Positions 38,351-61,498 of a DNA stretch of 64,000 nt are shown here, piece by piece. Made by a program: the position numbers and the translations under genes. The notes beneath the pieces were generated by a model. That model worked only from the letters and a program-made list of their open reading frames with translations. It made no database searches and was not told where the DNA came from. How positions within the stretch are numbered: position 1 is the first letter of the stretch; every line of letters begins with the position of its first letter. This stretch comes from Paracyclopina nana (lineage: Eukaryota; Arthropoda; Copepoda; Cyclopoida; Cyclopettidae). The stretch is from positions 5,084,001 to 5,148,000 of the forward strand of contig JAGUCH010000005.1 in the NCBI GenBank assembly GCA_019096065.1, given 5' to 3'.

Positions 38351-41300
38351 ATGAGCAACCCGCCATTGGCCACAACGACAACCTCTTCGGCCGACACCAT
38401 GACGATAAACAGCAACGAGCCCACTGGGTCCAACATGGAGGAGGACGCCTCTCCGCCCTCCTGCAAAAAGCTCAAGTTGGATATTGACATCGCCAAAGGC
38501 CAAGTCAATTGCACCAACAATGCCTCGCCCAAGACCTCGAGGCAACGGCTGTTGGACAAGCGGCTGGCGAGAAGGGCCAAGATACTCGAGTCCTACAAAG
38601 ACAACATGTCCGAGCTCTTCTTCCTCCAGTCCAAAGGCAACGTCGTAGATCTTCCTGCCTTCAGAAAGAAACCAAGCCAGCAGTTCCTGAATTTCCTCAA
38701 GTCCAACAATGCGCCTGAGGAGATTCTCGAGGAAATCAGATTGGTTGTCCTGGGGCCCAACGCCAGCCTGGAAAAGCCACAAGTTTCTGTTTCCTCCACC
38801 ACTGGCAAGGTGACAGTGACCTCTGCCGCCATGGCTGCCGCAGTGTTGGCCGTCCATGGGCCGAATTGGAAGCCCATTGTGGCATCCTCAGCAGACACAG
38901 CAGCCTCCACTTCATCGACTGCATCAAAGCCTCCATATTCACCGCGTTCAAATTTGCTGTCACCTGTCAAGTTTGGCGACCAACTGCAGCCCTACCCGGC
39001 GTCAAGAGCAAATGCCATAGTGTCATCCTACGCTTCATATAGGTTACCTTCCTACTCAAGAGACCTCCTAACTGAAAAAATCCGACAAGAAGCCTGGGTG
39101 ACGCGACGAGTCAATGATCTTGCCAGGGAGGGGCTGTGGTCGGAGAAAAGGCTGCCCAAAGTTTGTGAACGGCCCAGGCCGAAAACGCATTGGGACTCGC
39201 TGCTCTCCGAGATGCAGTGGCTGGCTGTTGATTTTCATGAAGAGCGAAAATGGAAGATGGCAGTTGCCAAAATGCTCGCTTATTCGGCCAAAAAGTATGT
39301 TGAGCAGCAGGCAGAGCGGCAGGCTCGCAAGGCTGAAATTTTGGAGCAGAAAAAGCGACGCATTGCTCGGTTCATGGCTGGCCAAGTTGAGCTCTTTTGG
39401 AGCAGCATTTCCATCACCAACACCGAGCTCAGCGAGGACAAGGATGAGCCAACGCCGACGACAGCCAACACAACTACCACGGCTGAACTCCTTCATCACC
39501 ACGGTGAAGCTTCCAGTGAAAGTGGTGTGTGCAATCTGGACGACGATGACGACGAAGACCAGAGCAATGTTGACGAGGAGGATGACAACGTGTTTGAAGC
39601 TTTCGAAGAGGAGGACTTGGATGAGTCCACCATTGCGGAGCAGGAAGACTATGAGTCGACACATTATGATAGTTGGCATGAGCAAGAACTGACCATTTTG
39701 AGCGAGGACAATGCCAAGCCCATCGAGGCTGTGCTGGCCTCCTCGTTTCCGGGCTATGATCTCAATACACCTTATGACTTGCAGCAGCACGACTCTTCTC
39801 TATCGTCGGAAGATGACGACTCTGAAGACCTTGACCTCGACTCCGATGACGAGGATGAGGGAGAGGATGAAGAAGAATTTTCTTTCTCGGACTCTGAGAA
39901 GGTCATCCACCTGCCTTTGTCGACGCGTCAACGCAAGTTGTACGACGACTACCTCAGCTCCACCTCTAGCCAGAATGCTCTTGAAAGTCTAGACGCGAAA
40001 GCCATTGCAAGCGTGCTCCAAACATTGAGGAAGATCTGCAATCATCCTCAACTTTTGGATGAACGCGCGGATGAGTTGAGCAGTGAAGAAGTACCTGACA
40101 GTGAGGAGCCAAGCAACTTTGTGAGAATTGCTGATTGCCTCAGAATTCCTGGTTTGGTGGCGAGAGCCACGGACTATCAGCCCCTTGAAATGGTGGACTT
40201 GGCCTCGCTGAACCTCGTGTTTTACACCCACGAGTCCACCCTCACTGCAATCACCTCTGACAGGATTCGCAAGTGCTGTGCACCCAAGGTTCTCATCGAG
40301 GAGCTTCCAGAGGAGGCAACTCAGCCTAAAATTCCCAAGTTCCCCTTCAGCTTGACAGCGGAAGGGTGGCTCATGGAAACAACAACCAAGTCCAAAGAAG
40401 AAGTTGGTAGCAGCGGCCAGGAGAAAAGTGCGGCTACTGCTACAACTGCTAAAGGGGCATTCCACAAAGACTCTCTCAATGTGATAGCCAGATTCAATGA
40501 GCGGCGGTGCAATGGGATGCCGCTGTATGGCCAGGACCTGATTGAGGTTCTCACCATTGTGTCTGATGAGGCCATATGTTCACCCCCGAAGTTGTCGTCG
40601 TCAGGCTCTGGTGGCATCTGGAAGGGCTCAGGATTTGTGGCCCCTGGCTGCCTGCAGGCTGGAATTTTGCCAGACACTCTTGCCTCTCAGTTTTGGCCCT
40701 TTTTCGGTGCCAAGAAGCCCCAGCTGAGAGCCTCCAAGCATTTGCGCTCACGGTGGCTGAAAACAACGACGGTCTCCCACGACCTCTCCGCATTGACCAT
40801 GCAAATTCATTCAGATACTACAGTTGGACTCTCTGTGCCTCCCAAAGTCCAGTTGGTGGCTGGTTTTAATCGGACTCATTTAGTTTTGACATCCAAACAT
40901 TTAGCCGTCGTCGAGGCTGTCAAGTTTGCTCGCGCCAAAGCCACCGGGGCTGGAATTTCATCAACATCATCATCATATAGGGCAATTTTGACATCGGCCG
41001 AAAACAAGAACCTGAGAGAGGTGAGCTCAAAGTTGACCCACTTGGACAGCTTGCTGCAAAACTTCCGCAAGAATGGAGAGCGAGCGCTGATATTTTGTGA
41101 AATGCCCGAAATGCTCTCGTTGCTGATGCGATATTTGCGGACGCATCGCTACCCATTTGCGTACCTCGACCCCGAAGCCACAATCAAAGAGAGGTTAACT
41201 GTCATGGAAGAGTTCACCGACCGCAACAGTCTCCTTGTGCTGCTGGCGTCAAGAAAAGCTGCTGCGACGACCATCCACTTGAATCGGTTTTGCGGCTACT

Positions 41301-44300
41301 CCAACGTATGTAACGTCGTGTTCTTTGACTCTAATCTTAACAACAATCCTGATCATGCGGACACTTTGGAATGGTGCAAGAGCTTCAGCGGCTTGAACCG
41401 GCTCACAGTTTACAAATTAGTGTGTGAAGGCACCGTTGAAGACAGCCTCAGTATTAAAGCTTTGCAGCAAAAGTTGATGCTCAACAGCCGTTGCGTTGAA
41501 GATCTCGCCATGGAGACCACGAGCAATGGACCACTGGCAAAGATTAAAAAGCATGCTCTAGATGCATTGTTCAACCCAAATCTCGGAGACAACGGTCTCC
41601 TAGGGAGAAATCAGAATGTAAGTTGTGCAATCCTCACTTTTTACGTGTCCCACTATATAGCTATATTTTATTATTTTTAAGGTGGAGGAGGAAACAACTC
41701 TGGTTAAAATAATGGAGGACCAAGAAGCCATCGCTCAGCTTGGCTGGTTGTGGTCAGACAAGAATCACACTTTGGGACAGAGCATTGTCGAACTTTCACA
41801 GCAAGTTGATAAAGGCTGTGTAAAGGATGAACTCAAACCAATTGAGAGGTGAGTAGTAAAGTCAAATTTCTCAATGGAAACAATTGAGCTTTTTAAAAAT
41901 TCGCTTTATAATAACCTAGAATGACTGTCTTACCACATCTAATTTAGAATGCTTACATGCGTTGAACTAATTTTTTTGTCCGTTTACTTACCAGTATCAC
42001 GTTAATACTATTTGTTTAAAAAATTATATAGCGTCAACTATTTTCGCCAGTTATCTCGCATTTGCGCTCTTATTTAAAAAGGACTAAATGTTTTGCGTAA
42101 AAACCAAAAATATTCAAGCTTTCCAATTTTAGTCATTGGAAAGCTTTGGTTTGTAGCTTTGAAGATTGTGGAATCGTTTTTTTGTGTTGCTCTAAGAACA
42201 CAGCTTTTGTCTAGCTTTGGTTTTCAGTGCTCTCATGATTCAAATATGTAGCCATGCGGATTGATGCGCAATTGTTTGGGCCTCATCTACTTATAAAAAG
42301 AAACATTAGTCTCAAAAATGCGTTAAGTTGAGCGATTCAGCTAAAAGCAATGCTCCTCATATTTTTTTGTTTAATGCTTTATTTGACCAAGTTCTTAACT
42401 AGCTGGGTAATTAGAAGAGTAAACAGCTTACAAATTTAATAAGCTGACATTTGTGTAACTCGTTCTCCAGCTAATTAACGAGGCAATTTATCCTCAAGTG
42501 CATTAATTTGCTTTTTCACGTGTAGTATAGGGTTTCATCGCTGCAATTTTATTTCAGATACGCTTGTGAAGTTCTTCCGACTCTTTCCAAAGAAGGGGAT
42601 TTGGTGGCTGATTCCTTCAGCCTTATTGAGCCAGAAGATGTGGAAGCAGAGAAAATCGAATGGGAAGAAGCTTATCAACGTGAATTGGCCATTTTGGCTG
42701 CGGAACTCGAAGACCTCGAAAAAATGGAGCCTCAGCTGACTTATTCAAGGGAGGATGCGAGTCGATCATGGCATGGAAAAGATGGTCAGCCCATGCCCCT
42801 ATGGACCCCACCCATGCCTTCGACTCTAATGGCAGACTCAAAGCAAGGCACCCTTAGGATTGAAGATCATCTCTCGTACTTGTACGAGATCTCTCTGATG
42901 GAGGAAGTTGATTTGCCGCAAGTCTATGTGAAGAAGGACCTGAAGCGATCTGGCTCGGAAGCAGGCATGAATGATCATGACAAGCATAAAATTCGCAAGG
43001 ATGATGGGGCCTTTCCCTCGCTGCCTTCTCAAGGCGGAGCGCCAAGATCATTATTTGACCGTCATCCAGGCATTCAGAAGCAAAAGCTGAAGGCACAGCA
43101 GAAAAAGTTCCCCATTGGCTCTGGTCCTGGCTTTGTGCAGCATCCTCTCGTTCCTGGTGTTGCTGGGGCATCATCAAATAGCCTCAGTTTCCAAGCAAAC
43201 GCCGTGTCCGGCCTCAGGCATCCCATTCCAAGGCAGCAGGTTGAAGCTGAGAATCAGCCCGACTGGCTCATCCAGGAGGACTGGGCTCTTTTGCATACCA
43301 TCAAAGATATTCAAGGTTTACCGCTGACTCTGAATACCATGTCCCCAGCTCACACAGTCAATTGGGATTTGGTCAGCGACATGGTCAACGCAGTGTCCCG
43401 AGTCTACCGTGGCCCAAGACAATGCAAGCATCGTTTTGACACCATCATTACGCCAAGAGAAGAAGGCCGCATGCACTATGAACTTCCAGGATCGTCCACC
43501 GCCTCAACATTGGCTGTGGCTGCTTCAAATAGCAAGAAGTCGAAAAAGAAGCAACTGACTGGAGCTTCCGGCCTCAAGCTGCCCAATGCGCCAGCCAAAA
43601 TGAGCCGGCCCATGAAAACCTCCCAGATATTTGCTCAAGACAGGAACACATCTTGGTCAGCTTTGTTTGCGACTCGCTTCGAAACAATCAAGTCAGTTGC
43701 CAACAAACGATCGCCCACTACCAAATCAATGATGGTGACTCCGGCGCAAAAAAGCTCAAACCACGCCACGGTGTTGTCCGACTGCAAGATTTCCTACGAT
43801 GCTCCTTTGAATCCCATTCAGGTGGCTGCCAATCGAGCTGAGAGGATCCAAAAGGAAAAGCAGAAGAGCGCCCAAGACGCTGCCAACCAGCAACTTCAGC
43901 AACGTGTGGCTGCGGCACAAGCTGCAGCAAATGCAGCTCAGCAGTCGGCGGCTGCCACAGCTCGTGTCGCTATTGTACAACAGCAGCAGCAGCAGCCGCA
44001 ACAGCAGCAAGCAGTTGTGGTTGGCATCAGTCAGCAAATTCCAAATGTGGGCGGAGGTCCCAACGCCCAGCAGCAGGTGAGGCAAGTAATCAGCCATCAT
44101 CAGGCCGTTCAAGAGCTGGTGAGGTCGCAGCCTCAAGCAGTTTCCATGGCTCAGCAACAGCAACCGACTGTAGTAGTGACTTCCCATCCACCTGTGGTGT
44201 CCGTAGCCAATTTGACTCCAAGCCAACTTGCTCAAGTGAAGCAGGCTGCTGCTCAAGCTGGGAAACAGGCTGGAGCCGTGGTTGCCACGTCTCCTGCTGG

Positions 44301-45508
44301 TACCAGCGTGCAAGGAAGACTCACACCTCAGCAAGTGAACATCTTGAAGCAACAACAGGCAATGCTGAAGAAAAACAACGAGGCCAAGGCCAGACTTCAG
44401 GGTATGCAGCAAGTTCAGGCCACGGCCGTCGTGGCTGCCACCACCAACACAGGGCAGAAAGTGTCGATTGCTGTGACGCCCAGCGGCGTGACTCTGGCCT
44501 CAATTGTGTCGAATTCGATGCCAGCTGGAGCGGTGACTGTGGTGACTCAGGCCATGGGCCAGCAGAAGTTGATCAGGGGCGTGACTGCTGCAGGAGCCAA
44601 GGGCAACCTCAGAATGACTGAGGCCGATATGAAGCTGCTTCTGGCTAGCAAGCAGCAAATTCAGCAGCAGCAGCAACAGCATGCTCAGCAGCAGCAATCG
44701 CAGATGAAGGCCTCTCCGCACCAGCAAAGCGTGACCACCTTGCTGCAAGGCATTCAAACCACTCTGGTGAAACCTGCTACCAGTGGTGGAGTCTCTGCTG
44801 TGACGGGCAGCAATGCTGGTGTGGCCGTTTCTGGAGCCACGCAAAGTGTCACAATCCCACTGCAAATGCAGAGCATCCAAGGCATCAAAACTTTGCGACA
44901 GACGCCCAACCAACAGCAAATGGTCCAGTTGCGGCATCAGCTTGTGCAGCAAGGACCCCGCTCCAAAATCATTCCCGGTGGTCAGGCGATATTAACCACA
45001 AATCAGCAAGGCCAAAAAGTCTTCAGCCAGGTTGCAGGCGCGAAAGGCATTCCAACTCAGCTTATCGTGTCCTCTGCATCCAACAAACCTGTGATCCAGC
45101 AGTTCCAGCAAATCAAGGCGCAAGGCCAGCCAGGCACAACTGTCAACTACCAACAAGCTTTGCTGCAAGCCAAAAGCCAAGGCCAGGGAGTGCAAGCTCG
45201 AGTCATACCAGCCACTGTGTCAGGCCGGCCTCAGCAGATTCACGTGGTCGCAGCTCCAGCCTCTTCTCTGCCCCAGGGACCCGGAGGGCGTCATGCAGCT
45301 CCCAATGTCACTGTTGATGCTTCAGGTCGGCCAACCTCTGGAGCCGTTCAGATTGGCTCTCAAATCCGAGTGGCTGCGGGCACGTCTCCCCAAATCCTGA
45401 ATCAAGTGCTCCGATCTCCTTCGGCAAATGTGATTGCCCAAGCTCAGGCTTCGAACAATATCAATGCCTCGACCACAAAGTTGCAAGTGGTTCACGCGGC
45501 AACGGCCC

Positions 45509-45543
<35 letters not shown>

Positions 45544-45564
45544 AATGAACAACATAATGGCTAA
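38351..45564 (+). CDS. EP400: EP400/Domino-like protein lacking the first ATPase lobe
   Basis: Three exons (38351-41617, 41682-41848, 42558-45564) encode 2146 residues. EP400/Domino is the SNF2-type subunit of the Tip60/NuA4 complex that exchanges H2A.Z and acetylates chromatin. Domains seen: HSA helix near residues 278-350 (HWDSLLSEMQWLAVDFHEER), an acidic stretch containing DESTIAEQE and a second at about 489-510, then the start of SNF2 lobe 2 (LPLSTRQRKLYDDYLS, LRKICNHPQLLD), the long family-typical insertion, the second half of lobe 2 (GERALIFCEMPEML), a SANT domain near 1378-1445 and a Gln-rich tail ending in 12 glutamines. Lobe 1 with Walker A and B is absent: acidic sequence runs straight into lobe 2 in one open exon. 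Motifs V and VI of lobe 2 are also degraded. The reading frame is otherwise intact, so I read it as a functional gene for a non-catalytic protein. The start follows an in-frame stop in the 5' UTR. Confidence 0.9.
41849..42557 (+). other. Second intron of the EP400-like gene
   Basis: 709-bp AT-rich intron. I checked it for the missing ATPase lobe and saw no helicase motif in any frame. Confidence 0.6.
45508..45543 (+). repeat. (CAA)12 repeat coding for polyglutamine
   Basis: Twelve perfect CAA units encode the terminal polyglutamine tract of the EP400-like protein, 6 codons before the stop. Perfect repetition suggests that the length varies between individuals. Confidence 0.9.
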
Positions 45565-47653: not shown

Positions 47654-47952
47654 AAAAATCCATGGACCCCAACATTTGCAAATGCTCTCTCCTCTCAACG
47701 CCCCTGTTTATGATCTCCAGATTGCTTGAATAAGATGGGGCTAAAGAAGCGCGCGCAAGTCTGGCCTCAATTTCTCATCCAGGCCAGCCTCCATAGTATA
47801 TATAAGTGTTTCACGGATCGGCGTGGCGTTGCTCTGGTGTTCTTCAGCCTCTGCTGCATCAACACCTATACCAGAGTCCTAGAAAAGAGAGTAAGCTTGA
47901 TTATAATTACACAATGGCATGATTCTAATAATTAATACTGTATTAGTAAGCA

Positions 47953-50900
47953 ATGCCAGGAAACGTAAAGTTGGGCTCATCCAATGAGCCTGACCCTGAT
48001 CCAACTCCATACCTTATGGTCTCTGCCGAGACCAAAAGGGCTGATCACAACAAGCCGTACGACCCCAAAAAATCAGTCTGGGTCCCTGACGACGAAGGAG
48101 GGTTTTTTGAAGGACTGCTACAGTCTGACGATGGAAAAAAGGCCGTTGTCATGATTGGCCACGAGAAGAAGACGTTCAAAAGTGAGCAAGTTGCACCTAT
48201 GAACCCTCCCAAGTTTGAGAAATGCGAGGATATGGCGGATTTGACGTATCTCAATGAAGCCTCAGTTCTGTGGAACCTCAAAGCTCGCTACCAGGCCAAC
48301 ATAATTTACGTAAGCAAAATAATTCTTGTACGGAAGATTGTCTCATGGTTCAAAGTCACATTTTTAGACCTATTCTGGCTTATTTTGCGTCGCTGTCAAT
48401 CCGTACAAAAGGTTTCCGATCTACACTCCCACAACGGTCAAGTTGTACATGGGGAAACGAAGGAGTGAGGTGCCACCGCACTTGTTTGCCATTTCTGATA
48501 TTGCTTACAGAAACATGATTGCCAGTAAGTCTAGCTCATTATGAGAAAAGAATGCAGTAAAAATCATGAGGAATTACTCTCTTACAGCTCACTGCAATCA
48601 GAGTATGTTGATAACGTAAGTGAACTCCAATTTGATGCAGCATGAATCATCATCGTACTATGCAGCTTTCTCCAAACATATGAAAGCATGCCAGCTATAA
48701 AATAATCTCGCAGAATTTACTGAGCTCATTAAAATCACTTTCTGCTTTAGGGGAGAATCGGGAGCAGGCAAAACGGAAAATACTAAGAAGGTTATCTCGT
48801 ATTTCGCCCTTGTTGGAGCTCGAAGTGACAAGAAAGGATCAAAGAAGGTCTCTTTAGAAGATCAAATTGTACAGACAAACCCAATTTTGGAGGCCTTTGG
48901 AAATGCTAAAACTGCAAGAAATGACAACTCTTCCAGATTCGTATGAGCTCTCCTGTAATACTATGGAGTTTTGAAGTATTATAGAATGCTTTCTCTTTAA
49001 GGGAAAATTTATTCGTATCCATTTCAACAACCAAGGGAAATTGGCTGGATGTGACATCGAAACTTATTTGTTGGAAAAATCAAGAATCACTTTTCAGCAA
49101 GAAGTGGAGAGGTCGTATCACATCTTTTACCAAATGATGCAAAAGGCAGTGCCAGATTTGAAAGCCAAGTGCCTGCTTTCTAATGACATCTACGACTACC
49201 ATTATGTCAGTCAAGGAAAAACTTCGGTGCCCTCAATTGATGATAATGAGGACTTGGAATTCACCCATGAGGCATTCAATATACTGCACTACACTGAGGA
49301 GGAGACATACAATATTTACAAATGTGTATCTGCAGTCATGAATATGGGAGAGCTGGTGCGTAGCTCAAATGCATATTGGCAAAAAATGGCAATTTTGTGA
49401 CCTTTTAATATTTTTCAGAAATTCAAACAAAAAGGCAGGGAAGAGCAGTGTGAGCCAGATGACAAGGAGAGAGCTGAGATTGTAGGAGAGCTACTTGGAA
49501 TTGATCCAGAAATGATGATGAAAGCCTTTTGCAAGCCAAAGATCAAAGTTGGAACTGAATGGGTGACAAAAGGCCAGAATATTGACCAGTCCACCCAATC
49601 TGTTGCAGGCATTGCTAGAGGCCTTTACGATAGGATCTTCAGATTCCTTGTTGAGAAATGCAATGAGACCCTGGTTGATCCAACCATGAAGAAGGTGGTC
49701 TTCATTGGAGTTTTGGACATTGCTGGATTCGAGATTTTCAAGTACAACGGATTTGAGCAGATTTGCATCAACTTTTGCAATGAGAAACTGCAACAATTTT
49801 TCAACCATCACACATTTGTCCTCGAGCAAGAGGAATACTTGAAAGAAGGCATTGATTGGGCAATGGTTGATTTTGGAATGGATCTGCAAGCTTGCATCAG
49901 TCTGTTTGAAAAACCCATGGGAATTTTGGCCATTTTGGAAGAGGAGTCCTTGTTTCCAAAAGCCACTGACAAATCTTTTGAGGAGAAGCTGAAGGCCAAT
50001 CATTTGGGAAAATCATCCAACTTTGCAAAGGCGTCTACCAAAACTGACAAAAATGCCCATTTTGCCATAGTTCACTATGCTGGTACTGTATCATACAACT
50101 TGACTGGATGGCTAGAAAAGAACAAGGATCCACTGAACGATACAGTTGTTGAGCTACTAAAGAATGGCTCCAATAAGTTGGTGGTTCACATGTTTGTTGA
50201 CCATCCGGGACAGAGTGGGGATAACCCCAATGCTGGTGATGCAAAAGGAGGTCGGGGACGAAGAGGCGGTGCTTCCAAGACTGTCTCAAGTTTCTACAAA
50301 ACTCAACTAGATTCACTGATGACAACCTTGAATGCAACTGAGCCCCACTTTATCAGATGCATTGTACCCAATGGGAACAAAATGCCTGGCCAAATGGACT
50401 CTGCATTGGTCCTTCACCAATTGACATGCAATGGTGTTCTTGAGGGAATTCGCATTTGCATGAGGGGCTTTCCCAATCGAATGCCATATGAGGATTTCAC
50501 CAAAAGATACTACATAATAAGAGCCAACGAAATCTCATCCTCTGGAACAACTGATTTGAAAAAGATGGCAGACATCATTTGTAGCAATACAGTAGATAAG
50601 GAGCGCTACAGGATTGGGAAAAGCAAAATTTTCTTCAGAGCTGGAGTCCTTGGCTACCTTGAGGAGGTCAGGGATGAAATTGTCTGCAGACTTATTCGCT
50701 ATCTGCAAGGGGCTTGCCGAGGATACATTCATCGCAAGGACTACCAATTTAGAAAAATGCAAAGGGAGTACATGTTTGTGATTCAGAGGAATTTCAGACA
50801 ATTCTTGAGACTACGCAACTGGAACTGGTTCAGCATCATCCAGAAGACTAAGCCATTGATAGGAATGATCAACATTGAAGAGGAAATCAAGATACTTGAG

Positions 50901-53900
50901 AATACAGCTGAAAATGCAATCATCGAAAGTGAAAGAGAGGCAGCAGAAAAGAAGAGGCTCGAAGAAGAAAATAAAAGATTGCAGGAGGAGAAGCAAAACT
51001 TGATGAGAAGACTTGAAAATGAACAAGGAGATTTAGGCCTGTATGAAGAGAGAGTTGCCAAAGCAGCAGCTCAAAAGGCTGATCTTGAGGTGCAAATGCA
51101 AGAAACTCAAGCAAGGTTGGAGGAAGAGGAATTGAAAAGGCAGCAGCTACATACTCAGAGAATGACACTAGAAAGTGAGTCCAATTTGGTCAGAAGGGAG
51201 TTGCAAGAGATGGAAGAAGAATTGACTAAAGCTGAGGCTGAAAAAACCAAAAGAGACCATACAATGAGGGCAATCAACGAGGAAATCAACTCTCAAGAGG
51301 ATATCATTCAAAAGTTGAACAGGGAGAAGAAGTTCTTCCAGGAAAATGCAAGCAGAGCTGACGAAGAGCTTGCTACTGCCAATGACAAAGTGGAGCATCT
51401 CAACTTGGTCAAAAACAAGCTTGAGCAGACTCTGGATGATCTCGAAGATACTTTGGAGCTTGAAAAGCGAGCCAAAAATGATGTTGAGAAAGCAAGACGC
51501 AAGCTTGAAACTGACCTCAAGGTAAGTCAGGAAATGGTAGCTGATATTGAGCGTGGCAAAAAGGAAATGGAAGCAAATGTGGGTCGCAAAGAGAGGGAAA
51601 TTGCTGAAGCATCAGCTCGTTTGGAAGGGGAGCAAGCAGTTGTTTCAAAGCAACAACGGGTCATCAAGGACTTCCAGGGCAGAATTGAAGAGCATGAAGA
51701 AGAGCTTGAGGCTGAAAGGCAAGCTAGAGCCAAAGCTGAACGCCAAAGGTCTGACTTGGGCAAAGAGTTGGAAGAGCTCACTGAGAGGCTGGAAGAGGCC
51801 AGTGGAGCCACTGCTTCCCAAATTGAGCTCAACAAGAGGAGGGAATTGGAAGTGCAGAAGTTGCGCAAGGATTTAGAGGAGTCTGCGATTCAGCAAGAAG
51901 CCACCATTTTGAGCCTAAAAAAGAAGCACCAAGATGCCATTCAAGAGATGTCCGAGCAAATTGACCAACTCAATAAGTTGAAGGCAAAAGCAGAAACTGA
52001 AAAGGCCACCATTAAAGTGCAAACAGATGACTTGAAGGCTGCCCATGATCATTTACAAAATGAGAAAGCTGCAGCGGAAAAGTCAAACAAAACTCTGCAA
52101 ACTCAACTTGGGGATTTGAACAAAAGGCTCACTGAGGGAAATTTGCAGCTGCAAGATATTGATTCCATCAACAAGAAATCAGCGAGTGAAAATTCTGAAT
52201 TATTGAGGCAGCTTGAAGAGCTGGAAGCAAATATTTCGATCTTGCAAAAGACCAAAATTCAGCTTTCTAATCAACTTGAAGAAGCTAAAAGGCTCTGTGA
52301 TGAGGAAAATAAAGAGAGAGCTTCTCTCATGGGACGCTACAGGACTCTTGAGCATGAGTATGATGGCACTTGTGCTGTCTACGAGGAAGAAAAGGTAGCC
52401 AAAGAGGATTTGGTGAGGCTCTGCCAAAAAGCTGAGGCTGATGCCAACTTCTGGAGGCTCAAATACGAGCAGGATGGAATTGCCAAAATCGAGGAGTTAG
52501 AAAACACCAAGCTCAAACTTCAGGCCAGATTGGCAGAGTGTGAAAGCACTGTGGGCAACTTGGGCACCAAATTGGACAACCTGGAAAAGAGCAAGGCCAA
52601 GCTGCAATCTGAAATCGAAGAGGTAGGAGCTTATGTGGACACTGCTTCTGCCAGAGCCAACCAGATGGAAAAGCGCATCAAGCAATTTGACAAGATCATT
52701 GGCGATTGGAAGCGCAAAGCAGATGGGCTTTCACAAGAGCTGGATCAGTCACAGAAGGAGTGCAGAAATGTCAGTTCTGAGCTGTTCAGGGTTAGATCTG
52801 GGTATGAGGAAGCCTCCGTTCAGCTAGGAGACGTCAAACGAGAGAATTCGATTCTCTGCGATGAAATCAAGGATATTATGGAGCAGATCAGTGAAGGAGG
52901 CCGCAATATTCACGAGATTGAAAAGCAAAGGAAGAGGCTTGAAACGGAGAAAAAAGAGCTGCAGGCAGCACTGGAAGATGCGGAAGCTGCACTTGAGCAA
53001 GAGGAGAACAAATGCCTGAGGGCTCAAGTTGAGCTGGGACAAGTGAGACAAGAGATAGAGAGGCGATTGCAAGAAAAGGAAGAGGAGTTCAACAATGCTC
53101 GCAAAATGCACCAAAAGCAAGCAGAGCAAATGCAAGCCAACATCGAGTCTGAGTCCAAGCTGAAGGCCGAAGTTTTGCGAGCCAAGAAAAAACTGGAAGC
53201 TGATGTGCAAGAATTGGAAGCAGCCCTGGATCATTCTAACCAAGTGGCTCACGAGAACCAAAAGAACATCCACAAATATCAGGTACCTACTATTTTTCTT
53301 AGTAGCACGAATTTTGCTGACTTAATTTGCCATGTGGCTTTGTTTAGGATGCGATTCGCCAGTCATCAAATAGGTTAGAAGAGGAGCAAAAAAGCAAGGC
53401 TATTGCCAGAGAGGTTCTCACCAATGTGGAGAGAAGAACTCACACTTTGCAAAATGCTCTCGAGGAGTCGCGTACCATGCTGGAGCAAGCAGACAGGGCC
53501 AGAAGAGCTGCAGAGCAAGAGATGCAAGACTGCAACGAATCTCTGAGTGACTTGAACGCTCAGAACCAATCTCTCATCACTGCCAAGCGTAGAGCTGAAT
53601 CTGAAATGGAAACAGTTAAGCAAGAGATGGACGATGTGTCCACTGAAGCCAGATCCTCAGAAGAGAAAGCTCATAGGACCATGATGGATGCTGCCAAGCT
53701 GGCTGATGAGCTACGAATGGAACAGGACAACACCAACAGGATAGAAGCTGAAAGAAAAGTAGCCGAACATCAAATACACGAGCTGCAGGCCAGGCTGGAC
53801 GAAGCTGAGGCAAATGCTCTCAAGAATGGAAAGAAAGCTGCCGCAAAGCTCGAGGCCAGAATTCGCGAGTGTGAGGCTGAGTTGGATGCTGAGCAGCGAC

Positions 53901-54322
53901 GACTTGGAGACTCCAGCAAGAATTTGAGGAAAGCTGAGCGCAGAATCAAAGAATTGGACTTCCAGTACGACGAGGATAGAAAGCAGCAAGAGCATATGCA
54001 AGATCTTGTGGATAAACTTCAGCAAAAGGTGAAGCTTCTGTTCTATATAAACAACATTCCTATTGAAGCAGTGAAAAGTTCACAATGTAAAATGTACTGC
54101 TTTTCTTCTAATTTTCTATTGTAGCTGCGATGCTTCAAACGACAAATTGAAGAGGCCGAGGAAATTGCTGCGTTGAATTTGGCCAAGTTTAGGAAGGCTC
54201 AAGGAGACTTGGAAGAGGCTGAAGAGAGAGCTGACCTCAATGAGCAAGCTTTGGCCAAATACAAAGCAATTGGCAGATCCAGAGGAACCACGCCTATTCC
54301 AGGACAGCCCAACTTTCTCTAA
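47953..54322 (+). CDS. Mhc: Muscle myosin heavy chain, first tandem copy
   Basis: Eight exons (47953-48309, 48368-48524, 48588-48615, 48751-48940, 49002-49355, 49419-53282, 53348-54028, 54125-54322) encode 1942 residues, the normal size of a class II muscle myosin. It is an actin-based motor of thick filaments. Seen in order: SH3-like N-terminal domain, P-loop [13 protein letters not shown], switch [10 protein letters not shown], switch II LDIAGFE, loop 2 (Gly/Arg-rich [11 protein letters not shown]), the SH1/SH2 region [16 protein letters not shown], one IQ region and about 1100 residues of heptad-repeat coiled coil. The tail ends [12 protein letters not shown]. The third exon is only 28 bp and ends at the P-loop. 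No duplicated, mutually exclusive exons are visible. A close relative follows at 55522. Confidence 0.96.
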
Positions 54323-55521: not shown

Positions 55522-58500
55522 ATGCCCGGTCACGTTAAACTTGGAAGCAGCAATGAGCCTGATCCCGATCCTCTGCCATATCTGGTTGTTAGCAACGAGA
55601 TGAGGAGAGCTGATATGGCAAAGCCTTACGACTCTAAAAAGTCTGTTTGGGTTCCTGACGGAGAGGGTGGCTTTATTGAAGCCCTATTGGATTCGGAAAA
55701 CGGAGACAAGACAACCGTTATGGTTGGGCATGAGGTATGAGAAAATTCTCACATTATTGACCCATGCGTTAAAATCTGTTAATGCTTTGCAGAAAAAGAC
55801 CTTCAAGTCTGATCAAGTTGGCCAGGTTAATCCTCCCAAGTTTGAAAAATGTGAGGACATGGCAAACCTGACTTTTCTTAATGATGCCTCTGTCTTTTGG
55901 AATCTTAAGACTCGTTACCAGGCCAAGTTGATTTACACCTACTCTGGCTTGTTTTGTGTAGTGGTGAACCCTTACAAAAGGTTCCCCATCTACAGCCAAA
56001 GCGTTGTCAAGCTGTACTTGGGCAAGAGGAGGAATGAGGTCCCACCTCATCTCTGGGCTATCACTGAAACTGCCTATAGGAACATGCTGCTCAACGGCAA
56101 AGATCAGTCAATGTTAATTACAGGAGAGTCTGGGGCTGGAAAGACTGAGAACACCAAGAAGGTCATCTCTTACTTGGCAATGGTTGCCTCGTCTGGAAAG
56201 AAATCTGACAAGAAGGCTTCTCTTGAGGATCAAATTGTTGCAACTAATCCAATTCTTGAGTCCTATGGCAATGCCAAGACATCTAGGAATGACAATTCAT
56301 CCCGTTTTGGCAAGTTTATCAGGATCCACTTTACAGGTAATTTCCCTAAATCCACTCTTCAATAAAGCTTTGAAAGTCACATGAATATTTCTGCAGCTTC
56401 TGGCAAACTTTGTGGTTGTGACATTGAATCTTATTTGTTGGAAAAGTCCAGGATCACCCAGCAGCAAGAAGTTGAACGCTCCTACCACATCTTTTATCAG
56501 CTTCTCCAACCCTTCGTGGCTGATCTGAAGTCAAAATGCCTGCTAACTGATGATATCTATGACTACAGCTATGTCTCTCAAGGAAAAGTCACTGTTGCCT
56601 CAATTGATGACAATGAAGAGTTGGAATACACTGACAATGCTTTTGATGTCATTGGATTCACCACTGCTGAGAAATGGGATTGCTACAAGCTGACTGCAGC
56701 TGTCATGAATTGTGGAGAGATCAAGTTCAAGCAAAAGGGAAGAGATGAGCAATGTGAGCCAGATGGTACTGAAGTGGCTGAAAAGGTAGCAGCTTTATTT
56801 GGAGTTGACTGTGAGCAACTTCTGAAGGCCTTTGTAAAGCCTAAAATTAAAGTTGGCACTGAATGGGTCACCAAAGGCCAGAATATTGATCAAGCAACCA
56901 ATGCAGTAGGTGGTATTGCCAGATCAATTTATGATAGGATCTTCAAGTGGCTTATTGTAAAGTGTAATGACACTCTAATTGATGCGTCCATGAAAAAAGC
57001 CAACTTCACTGCTGTGTTGGATATTGCTGGATTTGAAATCTTTGAGTACAACGGATTTGAGCAAATTTCAATTAACTTTGTTAATGAGAAACTGCAACAA
57101 TTCTTCAACCACCACATGTTTGTAGTGGAGCAAGAGGAATATGTTGCTGAAGGAATTGATTGGGCAATGGTTGATTTTGGCATGGATCTGGCAGCCTGCA
57201 TCATCATGTTTGAGAAGCCTATGGGAATTTGGGCGATTCTAGAAGAGGAGTCTCTTTTCCCCAAAGCTACTGACAAGACCTTTGAGGATAAGTTGAAGGC
57301 TCAATACCTGGGCAAGAATCCCAACTTTGTCAAGCCACAGTCTAAGACTGACAAGAATGCTCATTTTGCCATTGTTCACTATGCTGGAACTGTCTCCTAT
57401 AATGTCACTGGATGGCTTGAGAAAAATAAGGATCCAGTAAACGATACTGTTGTTGACCTTTTGAAGAAGGCTAGCAATGAGTTGCTGGTACTTCTTTGGG
57501 CTGACCACCCTGGTCAAACTGCTCCACCCCAAGAGGATAAGAGCGGCAAAAAGAAGAAGAAGGGTGGTGGAGGTAAAACTGTATCATCAGTCTACTTGGT
57601 ACAGCTTACCTCCCTGATGGCTACTCTTCATTCAACTGAACCCCATTTCATTCGCTGCATTGTGCCTAACACTCACAAGCAGCCAGGCGGAGTTGAGCCA
57701 CCTTTGATCATGCACCAGTTGACTTGCAATGGTGTGCTTGAAGGAATTAGGATTTGTATGAGAGGATTTCCCAATAGAATGTTGTATCCTGACTTTAAGC
57801 AGAGATATGCCATCTTGGGGGCAGGAAAGTTTGAGCCCACACTGGCAGACTTGAAAAAAGTAGCTGACATCATTCTAACTAACACCGAAGGATTTGATAA
57901 GGAGAAGTACAGACTTGGTCACACCAAGGTCTTCTTCAGGGCTGGTAGTTTGGCCTTGCTTGAGGAGAAGCGTGATGATATTGTTACATTGCTGATTCGC
58001 AAGCTTCAAGGAGCCTGCTATGGACATATTAAAAGGAAGGCATTCCAGATCAAAAAGCTTCAAAGGGAGTACATCCAAGTTGTTCAAAGGAACTTCCGCA
58101 AGTACATTGAGCACAGGGATTGGCCATGGTTTACCATCATTCAAAAAACAAGGCCTCTCATTGGTATGGTCAATGTTGAGGAAGAGCTTAGGCTGCTGGA
58201 GGAGAAAGCTACGGCTGCCTATGGGGCCTACCAAGAGCAATTGGAGACCAAGGCAAAATTGGAGGCTGAAAATATTGATCTTGAGAAAGAGTTGGGTGAA
58301 GTGAGGGCCAAAATTACTGCTGAGCAAGGAGACTTGACTGTCTACGAAGAGAAATTGGCAAAGGGGTCGGCTCAGAAAGCAGATCTAGAAGCTCAGCTAG
58401 CAGAAAATCGCGAAAAGCTGGCCAATGAAGAAAGGAACAAGTCTCAGGCTGGAGATGAAAAGCGCAATGTTGAAAGGGAAATTGGTGGCATCAAACAAGA

Positions 58501-61498
58501 TTTGGCGGACATGCAAGCTAAAGTAGACCGAGTTAACCAGGAAAAGTCTAAACTTGATGGAATCTTGAGAGGTCTCAATGATGAAGTTCTCCACAGAGAT
58601 GAATCGATTTCAAAGCTTAACAAAGAGAAAAAGTACATCAATGAGCACATGGGCAAAGCTTCAGAGGAGTTGACTACTAATCAAGACAAGCTCAACCACT
58701 TGAATGATATCAAAGCTAAATTGGAGAAGACTCTTGATCAAATGGACAGTGCTGTTGAGTCAGAAAAACGGGCCAAGGCAAATGTGGAAAAGGAGAGAAG
58801 GAAACTTGAGGGAGACCTGAAGATGTCTCAAGAAGCAGTCTCAGATATGGAAAGGCGTAAGCGAGAAATTGAGCAAAGCATTATGAGGAAGGACACCGAG
58901 ATCCACCAAATGATGAATAAACTTGATGACGAGCAATCTGGCATGAACAGATACCAAAAGACCATAAAGGAGTTGACTGCTCGTGTGGAGGAGATGGAAG
59001 AGGAATTGGAGGCTGAGCGCCAAGGTCGATCCAAAGCTGAAAGGCAAAGGCAAGACCTGTCAAGGGAGTATGACGAACTCACTGAGCGACTGGATGAATC
59101 TTGTGCTGCCACTGCTGCTCAAACTGAACTCAATAAGAAGCGCGAGACTGAAATCCAAAAGATGAGAAAGGATGTGGAGGAAAACAATATCCATCATGAA
59201 GCAACTTTGCTCAGCCTCAGGAAGAAACACCAGGATAGTATTGCTGAAATGTCTGAGCAGATTGACCAACTTGGCAAGCTAAAGGCTAGAATTGAAAAAG
59301 ACAAAATGACAGTGAGAATGCAGCTTGATGACACCAGAGCAGCCATTGAGCATATACACCATGAAAAGGCTGTTGCTGAGAAAAATCTGAAGGCTCAAGA
59401 AGCCCAGTTGCAAGCCTTGCAAAAGAAGATAGATGAGCATATGGTCACTCTGGGAGACTATGAGTCTCAAAATAAGAGGATGACCTCAGAAAATGCCAAC
59501 TTGTTCACTAAACTGGAGGAGCTATTGGGCAATGCATCTATGTTGCAGAAAGTGAAAGCTCAGCTCCAATCTCAACTGGATGATGTCAAAAGAATGGCAG
59601 ATGATGAGGCCAAAGAGAGGCAATCTCTCCTAGGCAGATTCAGGACTCTTGAGCATGAGTTTGATGGTGTGAAAGGTCATATGGATGATGAGATTCAGCA
59701 AAAAGAGGAGGTTGGTCGCCAATTGAACAAGACCATGGGAGAGGTCAACCATTGGCGTGCCAAGTATGAGCAAGAGGCTTTTGCTCGCATCGAGGAGCTC
59801 GAGGCCACTAAGGTCAAACTTCAGGCAAGGCTGGCAGAGGCTGAAGCAACCATGGAAAATCAGGTACAAAAAACTCGTGCCTTTTTAGAGAAATTTTCTA
59901 AATTAAATTGCTTTTAGAATGGCAAGCTTATGTCACTAGAGAAGGCAAAGTTGACTTTGACCAAAGAGATTGAAGATATGACCGCTAGGGTGGACCAGGC
60001 CAATGTTATCTACAGCCATGCAGAGAAGAAAATCAGGCAAATGGACAAGGTCATAGCTGACTGGAAAACTAAGGCAGATGGCATCAGCTTGGAACTGAAT
60101 AACAGCCAGAAAGAGTGCAGGAATGCATCAGCAGAGCTCTTCAGAGTTAAGAATGGCTATGAGGAAGCCAATGTTCAACTTGATGATGTGCGAAGGGAAA
60201 ATAAGTCGCTCTCAGAAGAGATCAAGGACCTTATGGAGCAAATCAGTGAGGGTGGTAGATCAATTCATGAGATTGAGAAGCAACGCAAGAAGCTGGAACA
60301 GGAGAAATTCGAGCTTGAAACTGCTCTTGGAGACGCCGAGTCAGCTCTGGAGCAAGAGGAAAACAAGCTACTCAGGTTGAGCCTTGAGGTCAACCAAGTT
60401 AGAGCTGACATTGAGAAGAGGATTCAGGAAAAAGAGGAGGAATTTGAAGGAACCAGAAGGAACCACACAAAGCAGCTTGAGCAAATGCAATTTAGCATTG
60501 AGTCTGAAAGCAAGGCAAAGGCTGAGGCGATGAGGATGCGCAAGAAGCTTGAGCTGGATATAGGAGAGCTTGACTCTGCCTTGGAGCATGCTCATTTGGC
60601 TAATCTTGAGCTTCAAAAGAGCATCAAGTCCTACCAGGACAAGATTCGCGAAAAAACCTTGCAATACGAGGCCGAGCAAGTGGCAAAAGATAATGCTCGC
60701 GAGTGCATGATGAACGCGGAGAGGAGAGCTAACACTGTTCAAAATGCTCTTGAGGAAGCAAAAACAATGCTGGAGCAGGCTGACAGGGCAAGGAAAATGG
60801 CTGAGCAAGAACTGTCTGATACAAATGAGACCTTGGCTGATCTCACGGTTCAAAACCAAAGCCTTACCTCAGCAAAGAGGAAGCTAGATCAAGACTTGTC
60901 TGACCTGAGACATGAGGCAGATGAAGCTATGAATGAGGCCAGAGAAATGGAGGCCAAGGCCAAACGTGCAATGCTTGATGCTGCTAAATTGGCTGAAGAG
61001 CTCAGGGCTGAGCAAGAGAATGCTCAACTTTTGGAGCGTGACAGAAAGGAGATGGAAGCAAGAGCTCATGAGCTCCAAGTGAGCCTTGATGAAGCTGAAG
61101 CCAATGCCATCAAATGGGGTCGCAAGATGGTGGCTAAATTAGAATCGAGAGCCAAGGACATTGAAAACGAGCTTGATTCTGAACAGAGAAGATTGGGAGA
61201 TGCTACCAAAAATTACAGGAAGTGCGAGAGAGGCATCAAGGAATTGACATTTAGGCATGACGAGGACCGCAAAAATGCAGAGAGAATGCAGGATTTGGTG
61301 GACAAGTTGCAGCAGCAAGTGAGAAACTACAAGAAGCAAATTGAAGAAGCTGAGGAAATTGCTGCCCTCAACTTGGCCAAATTTAGAAAGGCTCAAATTG
61401 ACCTCCAGGAAAGCTTGGAAAGGGCTGACCTCAGTGAACAAGCCCTGGCCAAGTCCCGAGTTCGAGGTCGATCCATGTCTCTTGCGAGGGAATTTTAA
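55522..61498 (+). CDS. Mhc: Muscle myosin heavy chain, second tandem copy
   Basis: Four exons (55522-55734, 55793-56336, 56397-59863, 59918-61498) encode 1934 residues. Motor motifs are complete: P-loop [38 protein letters not shown], a Lys-rich loop 2 ([10 protein letters not shown]), [16 protein letters not shown], then the lever arm and a long coiled coil. The tail ends [12 protein letters not shown]. The protein is collinear with the first copy but differs in loop 2, in the tail end and in gene structure (three introns instead of seven). The converter, relay and hinge are all encoded in one 3.5-kb exon, so the alternative exons used by insect Mhc are not possible here. The two copies are probably specialised for different muscles (inference). 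Confidence 0.97.

Follow-up and report, generated by a model that had tools for sequence, protein, structure and literature searches.

A probable motor-less EP400/DOM-A-type scaffold in the copepod Paracyclopina nana, alongside a separate SRCAP-type gene

Yeast Eaf1 (Vid21) and plant EAF1 combine an HSA and a SANT domain in a platform that has no ATPase, and a separate gene encodes the Swr1-type ATPase (PMC4358907). In flies a single gene, domino, yields both DOM-A, which is NuA4-like and carries a SANT domain and a Q-rich region, and DOM-B, which is SWR1-like; isoforms with differing C-termini are also described for four further insects and a house spider (PMC7239659). The same paper reports that the H4K12 acetyltransferase activity of the fly DOM-A complex is independent of the ATPase activity of DOM-A. 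In human TIP60, as described in PMC11995519, EP400 is the organiser of the modules: its pre-HSA and HSA regions bind DMAP1 and the ARP module, its motor and insertion sit with the RUVBL ring, its post-motor domain (PMD), folded back, contributes to tethering the acetyltransferase module, and its SANT and hydrophobic (HD) domains hold TRRAP. In vitro, human TIP60 with its motor carries out H2A.Z exchange (PMC11995519), and the motor therefore does serve in at least one animal.

We analysed 64,000 nucleotides of the genome of the copepod Paracyclopina nana (hereafter the window; contig JAGUCH010000005.1, or C5, positions 5,084,001 to 5,148,000). The window contains a gene whose product follows human EP400 in domain order: HSA, lobe-2 pieces with an INO80-family insertion, PMD, SANT, HD and a Gln-rich tail. 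Unlike human EP400, the window protein has no SNF2 lobe 1 and has lost the arginines of motif VI, and at 2146 residues it is shorter than the human protein (3159; PDB chain 8qr1_A). Its three exons (38351-41617, 41682-41848 and 42558-45564) were joined at GT/AG splice sites picked by eye, and the resulting model has one terminal stop and none internal. The model reproduces the 2146 in-frame residues given in an earlier note on this DNA, and the uninterrupted 3.27-kb exon of that note is exon 1, which is free of stops over all of its 3267 bp. The features of the gene, in window coordinates, are as follows.

38351..45564, + strand: whole coding gene, three exons, 2146 aa, a putative motor-less EP400/DOM-A-type scaffold (in-frame splice model)
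38522..38710, + strand: EP400_N-like segment (SELFFLQSKGNVVDLPAFRKKP...), PF15790 at 22 bits, under the 27-bit cut-off
39167..39370, + strand: HSA domain, PF07529 at 57.9 bits (cut-off 23), human EP400 alignment at 105.2 bits
39431..39895, + strand: acidic linker, part of which aligns with the pre-motor linker of the SRCAP-type paralogue
39893..39898, + strand: junction at which the entire SNF2 lobe 1 (~266 residues) is absent in the alignment with the paralogue
39896..40066, + strand: lobe-2 start (EKVIHLPLSTRQRKLYDDY...KICNHPQLLDER), BLASTP to the paralogue; 40.9 bits to SRCAP, 21.4 bits to EP400
40067..41008, + strand: INO80/SWR1-type insertion between the lobe-2 halves, with a conserved NERRCNGMPLYGQDL block at ~40496-40561
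41009..41575, + strand: decayed C-terminal half of lobe 2, PF00271 at 30 bits
41369-41401, + strand: motif VI (EWCKSFSGLNR), both arginines gone in comparison with human EP400 and SRCAP
42715..42960, end approximate, + strand: post-motor domain (LTYSREDA...PLWTPPMP...LPQVYVKK), human EP400 alignment
43258..43467, + strand: SANT domain, aligned with human EP400
43762..43866, + strand: hydrophobic domain (HD; TRRAP-binding in human), core aligned with human EP400
43867..45561, + strand: Gln-rich tail, 122 Q among the final 567 residues

On exon 1 Pfam gave HSA, a partial Helicase_C and a weak EP400_N below its cut-off, at the bit scores listed above; the EP400_N-like segment aligns with residues 357-429 of human EP400 at 12.4 bits, and the insertion gives a weak match to that of yeast Swr1 (E 0.1). 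On exon 3 Pfam found no family at E up to 0.1. Searching PDB with the exon-3 part by phmmer returned 5 of 177635 distinct sequences at E up to 0.01, four from human EP400 (best E 1.9e-45) and one from a TFIID subunit (E 0.007), which places the PMD, SANT and HD domains with the EP400 type. Together with the Q count of the tail, Pfam and the human EP400 alignments bear out the earlier claim that HSA, parts of lobe 2, SANT and the Gln-rich tail are retained.

Missing from the protein is the first SNF2 lobe in its entirety, with Walker A and the DEAH-type box. The acidic linker stops at residue 515 and lobe 2 starts at residue 516 with EKVIHLPLSTRQRKLYDDY (position 39896), the direct passage from one to the other that the earlier note had described. 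In an E-INS-i alignment with the genome's SRCAP-type paralogue (see below), the largest gap measures 266 columns, spans all of lobe 1 and corresponds to paralogue residues 386-652, and the linker carries an additional gap of ~28. Downstream of the junction, 45 of 126 residues (516-641, including the lobe-2 start) are identical to the paralogue by BLASTP. Exon 1 matches the final 58 of the 290 positions of Pfam's SNF2-rel_dom and no others, at 15.6 bits and under the 24.9 cut-off. Comparing lobe 1 of the paralogue with the whole window by tblastn gave a best E of only 0.77, and we reject on this result the idea that lobe 1 lies concealed within an intron or on the opposite strand; a PF00176 search of the 92-Mb genome at E up to 0.001 gave 31 matches, none of them on C5. 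These results confirm the central claim of the earlier note, the absence of lobe 1 from an EP400/Domino homologue. Because lobe 1 is absent, we do not class the gene as a remodeller ATPase.

Lobe 2 has degenerated as well, a point that the earlier note lacked, so the protein is more than an EP400 without lobe 1. Its motif VI reads EWCKSFSGLNR, against EWCDRIGRCKD in human EP400 and DRCHRIGQTRD in both human SRCAP and the paralogue, and what remains of lobe 2 is, judged by its sequence, dead rather than a working half. In the C-terminal half of the lobe, the window protein and human EP400 share 42 of 138 residues (30%), compared with 127 of 151 between the paralogue and human SRCAP and 79 of 135 between the two human proteins. 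The HSA domain is 44% identical to that of human EP400 (60/137), similar to the 58/139 between paralogue and human SRCAP, and identity to human EP400 reaches 41/69 (59%) in SANT and 22/33 in HD. With the C half of lobe 2 so much further diverged than HSA and SANT, the loss of constraint appears concentrated in the motor, where constraint is read from a comparison of identities and is not a measure of selection.

The relic has nonetheless stayed open. Residues 517-1075 include 0 stops in 559 codons, and the other five frames hold 15 to 31 each, so the gene looks like a maintained scaffold and not like a pseudogene; the widespread stop codons that the earlier note had named as a sign of a pseudogene are not there. 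As to whether the relic is EP400-like or SRCAP-like by origin, alignment columns shared exclusively with human EP400 and those shared exclusively with human SRCAP number 5 and 7 in the lobe-2 start, 9 and 7 in the lobe-2 C half, and 15 and 10 in HSA, a near balance that is not decisive.

An intact SRCAP/Swr1-type gene lies on another contig (C1:12465739-12460955, minus strand, 1519 aa), which answers the earlier suggestion to search the genome for a complete Domino/SRCAP paralogue. Its product has HSA, a complete lobe 1 and a canonical motif VI, ends in an acidic stretch, and is without SANT and without a Gln-rich tail. The two proteins are thus reversed, one with SANT, HD and Q-rich tail but no motor, the other with the full motor but no SANT or Q-rich tail; HSA, the linker, the lobe-2 start and the insertion blocks of SRCAP/Swr1/DOM-B are homologous to those of the window protein. 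Lobe 1 of the paralogue (C1:12463565-12464422, minus strand) scores 543 bits to human SRCAP and is nearer yeast Swr1 (422 bits) than human EP400 (310 bits), which points to rapid evolution of the EP400 motor in vertebrates as well.

A genome search with HSA gave two matches but not the SRCAP-type gene, whose HSA, interrupted by an intron, probably escaped the search for that reason; in its spliced model the domain is present. One of the two, at C7:703004, was considered as the missing SRCAP and set aside, since its ORFs read by eye as BRM/SMARCA4-type with a bromodomain-like region. Using the post-motor/SANT/HD region as query, two candidates were scored and one was kept, the window gene; no second SANT-HD copy or other EP400-type platform was found in the genome with this query. 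Among families of partner subunits, genome searches matched TRRAP as one gene in 3 pieces, EPL1 in 3 places, MYST in 8 pieces, YL1 in 1 place and TIP49 in 10 pieces, two of them weak.

The 31 SNF2 matches were grouped by hand into 17 loci, and the sequence of each of the 17 was retrieved. INO80 (through DBINO) and SRCAP are the only two families tested by comparison. The others we take, by eye, to be of CHD1, Mi-2, BTAF1, TTF2, CSB, SHPRH, ATRX, HELLS, RAD54, SMARCAD1, ISWI and SMARCAL1 types, with one bearing a RING; these names come from ORFs bearing chosen motifs, a set to which locus L015 contributed no ORF and which was drawn up without L017. On C3, the end of an SNF2 lobe 1 is matched twice at the same score, 2.4 kb apart on the minus strand (C3:4707314-4707844 and C3:4709743-4710273), at a locus that is RAD54-like by eye and is perhaps a partial tandem duplication.

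Contact residues named for human TIP60 (PMC11995519) were mapped from human EP400 onto the window protein, and 13 of 17 are identical. All three in the pre-HSA region (R807, K809 and H811, within RPKTHWD) and all six in HD (L2498, I2503, Y2505, L2509, P2511 and I2512) are kept, as are four of five in the SANT region (H2397, D2406, R2413 and K2469), where H2464 is replaced by Arg. None of the three PMD residues (D2259, I2260 and Y2261) is identical, in a gapped stretch mapped by hand. The insertion retains the block NERRCNGMPLYGQDL, which corresponds to NDRRCNACPLYGKDL in the SRCAP-type paralogue; with this block kept, docking to RUVBL may persist.

Combining these observations, we propose, at a probability of about 0.82, that the gene encodes a maintained EP400/DOM-A-type platform of NuA4/TIP60 whose SNF2 motor has been lost. 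Its HSA and pre-HSA would still assemble the actin/ARP-DMAP1 module, SANT and HD would still hold TRRAP, and the post-motor domain together with HSA would still tether the acetyltransferase module. The remnant of lobe 2 and its insertion may, to judge from the conserved blocks, still serve passively as a docking site for the RUVBL1/2 ring. The SRCAP-type complex would be alone in carrying out ATP-driven H2A.Z exchange. The intact SRCAP/Swr1-type gene and the kept scaffold domains lend support to what the earlier note had put forward, a scaffold-only EP400 with catalysis perhaps residing in a SRCAP-type paralogue.

Such a platform resembles Eaf1/Vid21, in that the window protein has HSA and SANT without an ATPase and the genome has a separate Swr1-type gene. 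Unlike Eaf1, it keeps a decayed lobe 2 with insertion, and in its post-motor domain and HD it follows EP400. A phmmer comparison with yeast Eaf1 matched the HSA region only, and the C-terminal part gave no Eaf1 match at E up to 0.01. We infer that the protein would work like Eaf1 but is not Eaf1 by descent, because the lobe-2 relic and the INO80-type insertion remain. Drosophila DOM-A appears to be a platform of the same type, a likeness drawn from its description in PMC7239659 and not from its sequence. The earlier note knew of no described EP400 with the architecture, and this stands in part: no animal EP400/Domino without the ATPase motor was found among the listed titles and openings of abstracts from openly licensed PMC papers, but ATPase-less HSA-SANT platforms are known in Eaf1/EAF1 (PMC4358907), so the working principle is not new.

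Four other explanations deserve weighing. First, the decayed motor may be more than a passive scaffold and be kept for a positive function, such as that of a pseudo-motor which binds DNA or H2A.Z and blocks or regulates exchange. Lobe 2 does persist in frame with its start and parts of its C half, as do the insertion blocks, and the genome has a YL1 gene; with lobe 1 and motif VI gone, we nevertheless consider this role unlikely. Second, the real gene might possess lobe 1 and the assembly might have dropped ~800 bp at the acidic low-complexity junction. The breakpoint does fall within such a stretch, and TRF at a low threshold (minimum score 30, 39400-40200) reports one 21-base array at 39539-39559, ~330 bases ahead of the junction. 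However, TRF reports no tandem array at the junction itself in that interval, the window has 0 N, and the gap sits at a domain boundary with the frame kept. Moreover, lobe 2 lies outside the gap and has still lost motif VI and diverged far beyond HSA and SANT, which fits a motor that had already lost its use. An artefact of this kind is very improbable.

Third, the gene could be a pseudogene, or an EP400 copy inactivated not long ago, and the true EP400 could lie at another locus, as the degenerate motor parts might suggest. We reject this reading, to which we attach little more than a token chance, on the open frame of the two large exons and the relic, the strong conservation of SANT and HD, and the single SANT-HD copy found in the genome. 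Fourth, and least credible of all, lobe 1 could be encoded elsewhere and join in trans, as a separate polypeptide or by trans-splicing: split proteins exist in general, but the other SNF2 loci read by eye as different families, the only Swr1/EP400-type lobe 1 seen belongs to the SRCAP-type gene, where a canonical lobe 2 accompanies it, and a lobe 2 that lacks the motif VI arginines is not expected to regain catalysis from a lobe 1 supplied in trans.

Returning to the maintained platform that has lost its motor, the best reading of the gene pair is that the two Domino functions are divided between two genes, a separate arrangement like that of yeast. The two genes look as though the DOM-A and DOM-B isoforms had been pulled apart and the DOM-A-like one stripped of its motor. 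An Eaf1-like function would have been reached here via loss from a fused EP400/Domino ancestor. We give roughly even odds to a fuller scenario, in which this lineage undid the animal EP400/Domino fusion and its TIP60 is left without H2A.Z exchange of its own. A Domino-like gene, from which other arthropods obtain the two functions as splice isoforms (DOM-A and DOM-B), would have duplicated and undergone reciprocal loss, the SRCAP-type copy keeping the motor and losing SANT and the Q-rich tail and the platform copy losing the motor, and the yeast division between Eaf1 and Swr1 would be re-created by reversal. Decay of an old EP400 gene is an alternative origin to duplication of an arthropod Domino, and the near balance of EP400-only and SRCAP-only columns favours neither.

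A lineage that lost the motor and kept the platform would constitute a natural experiment, showing that in an animal the platform role can stand apart from the motor and suffices. It would offer an animal system for studying acetylation separately from H2A.Z exchange, and would show that the union of Eaf1-like and Swr1-like roles in a single animal protein can be reversed.

Several further observations were made in the course of the analysis. Animals usually have two TIP49/RuvB-like genes, RUVBL1 and RUVBL2; three strong loci of this kind are present here, at C7:2489702-2490833 (minus strand), C8:5209499-5210590 (plus strand) and C7:4835440-4836524 (plus strand). Downstream of the EP400/DOM-A-type gene, the window holds tandem muscle-type myosin heavy chain genes on the plus strand, at ~47950-54124 and ~55604-61498; the stretch 49401-53378 is matched by Pfam Myosin_head and Myosin_tail_1, and the second gene was recognised by eye. 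TTAGG is the typical arthropod telomere repeat, and of 14 contig ends fetched, 6 carry TTAGG arrays, 2 CCTGG arrays, 2 N and 4 neither. The CCTGG arrays are long, at C1:1-1500 and C4:9686585-9688084.
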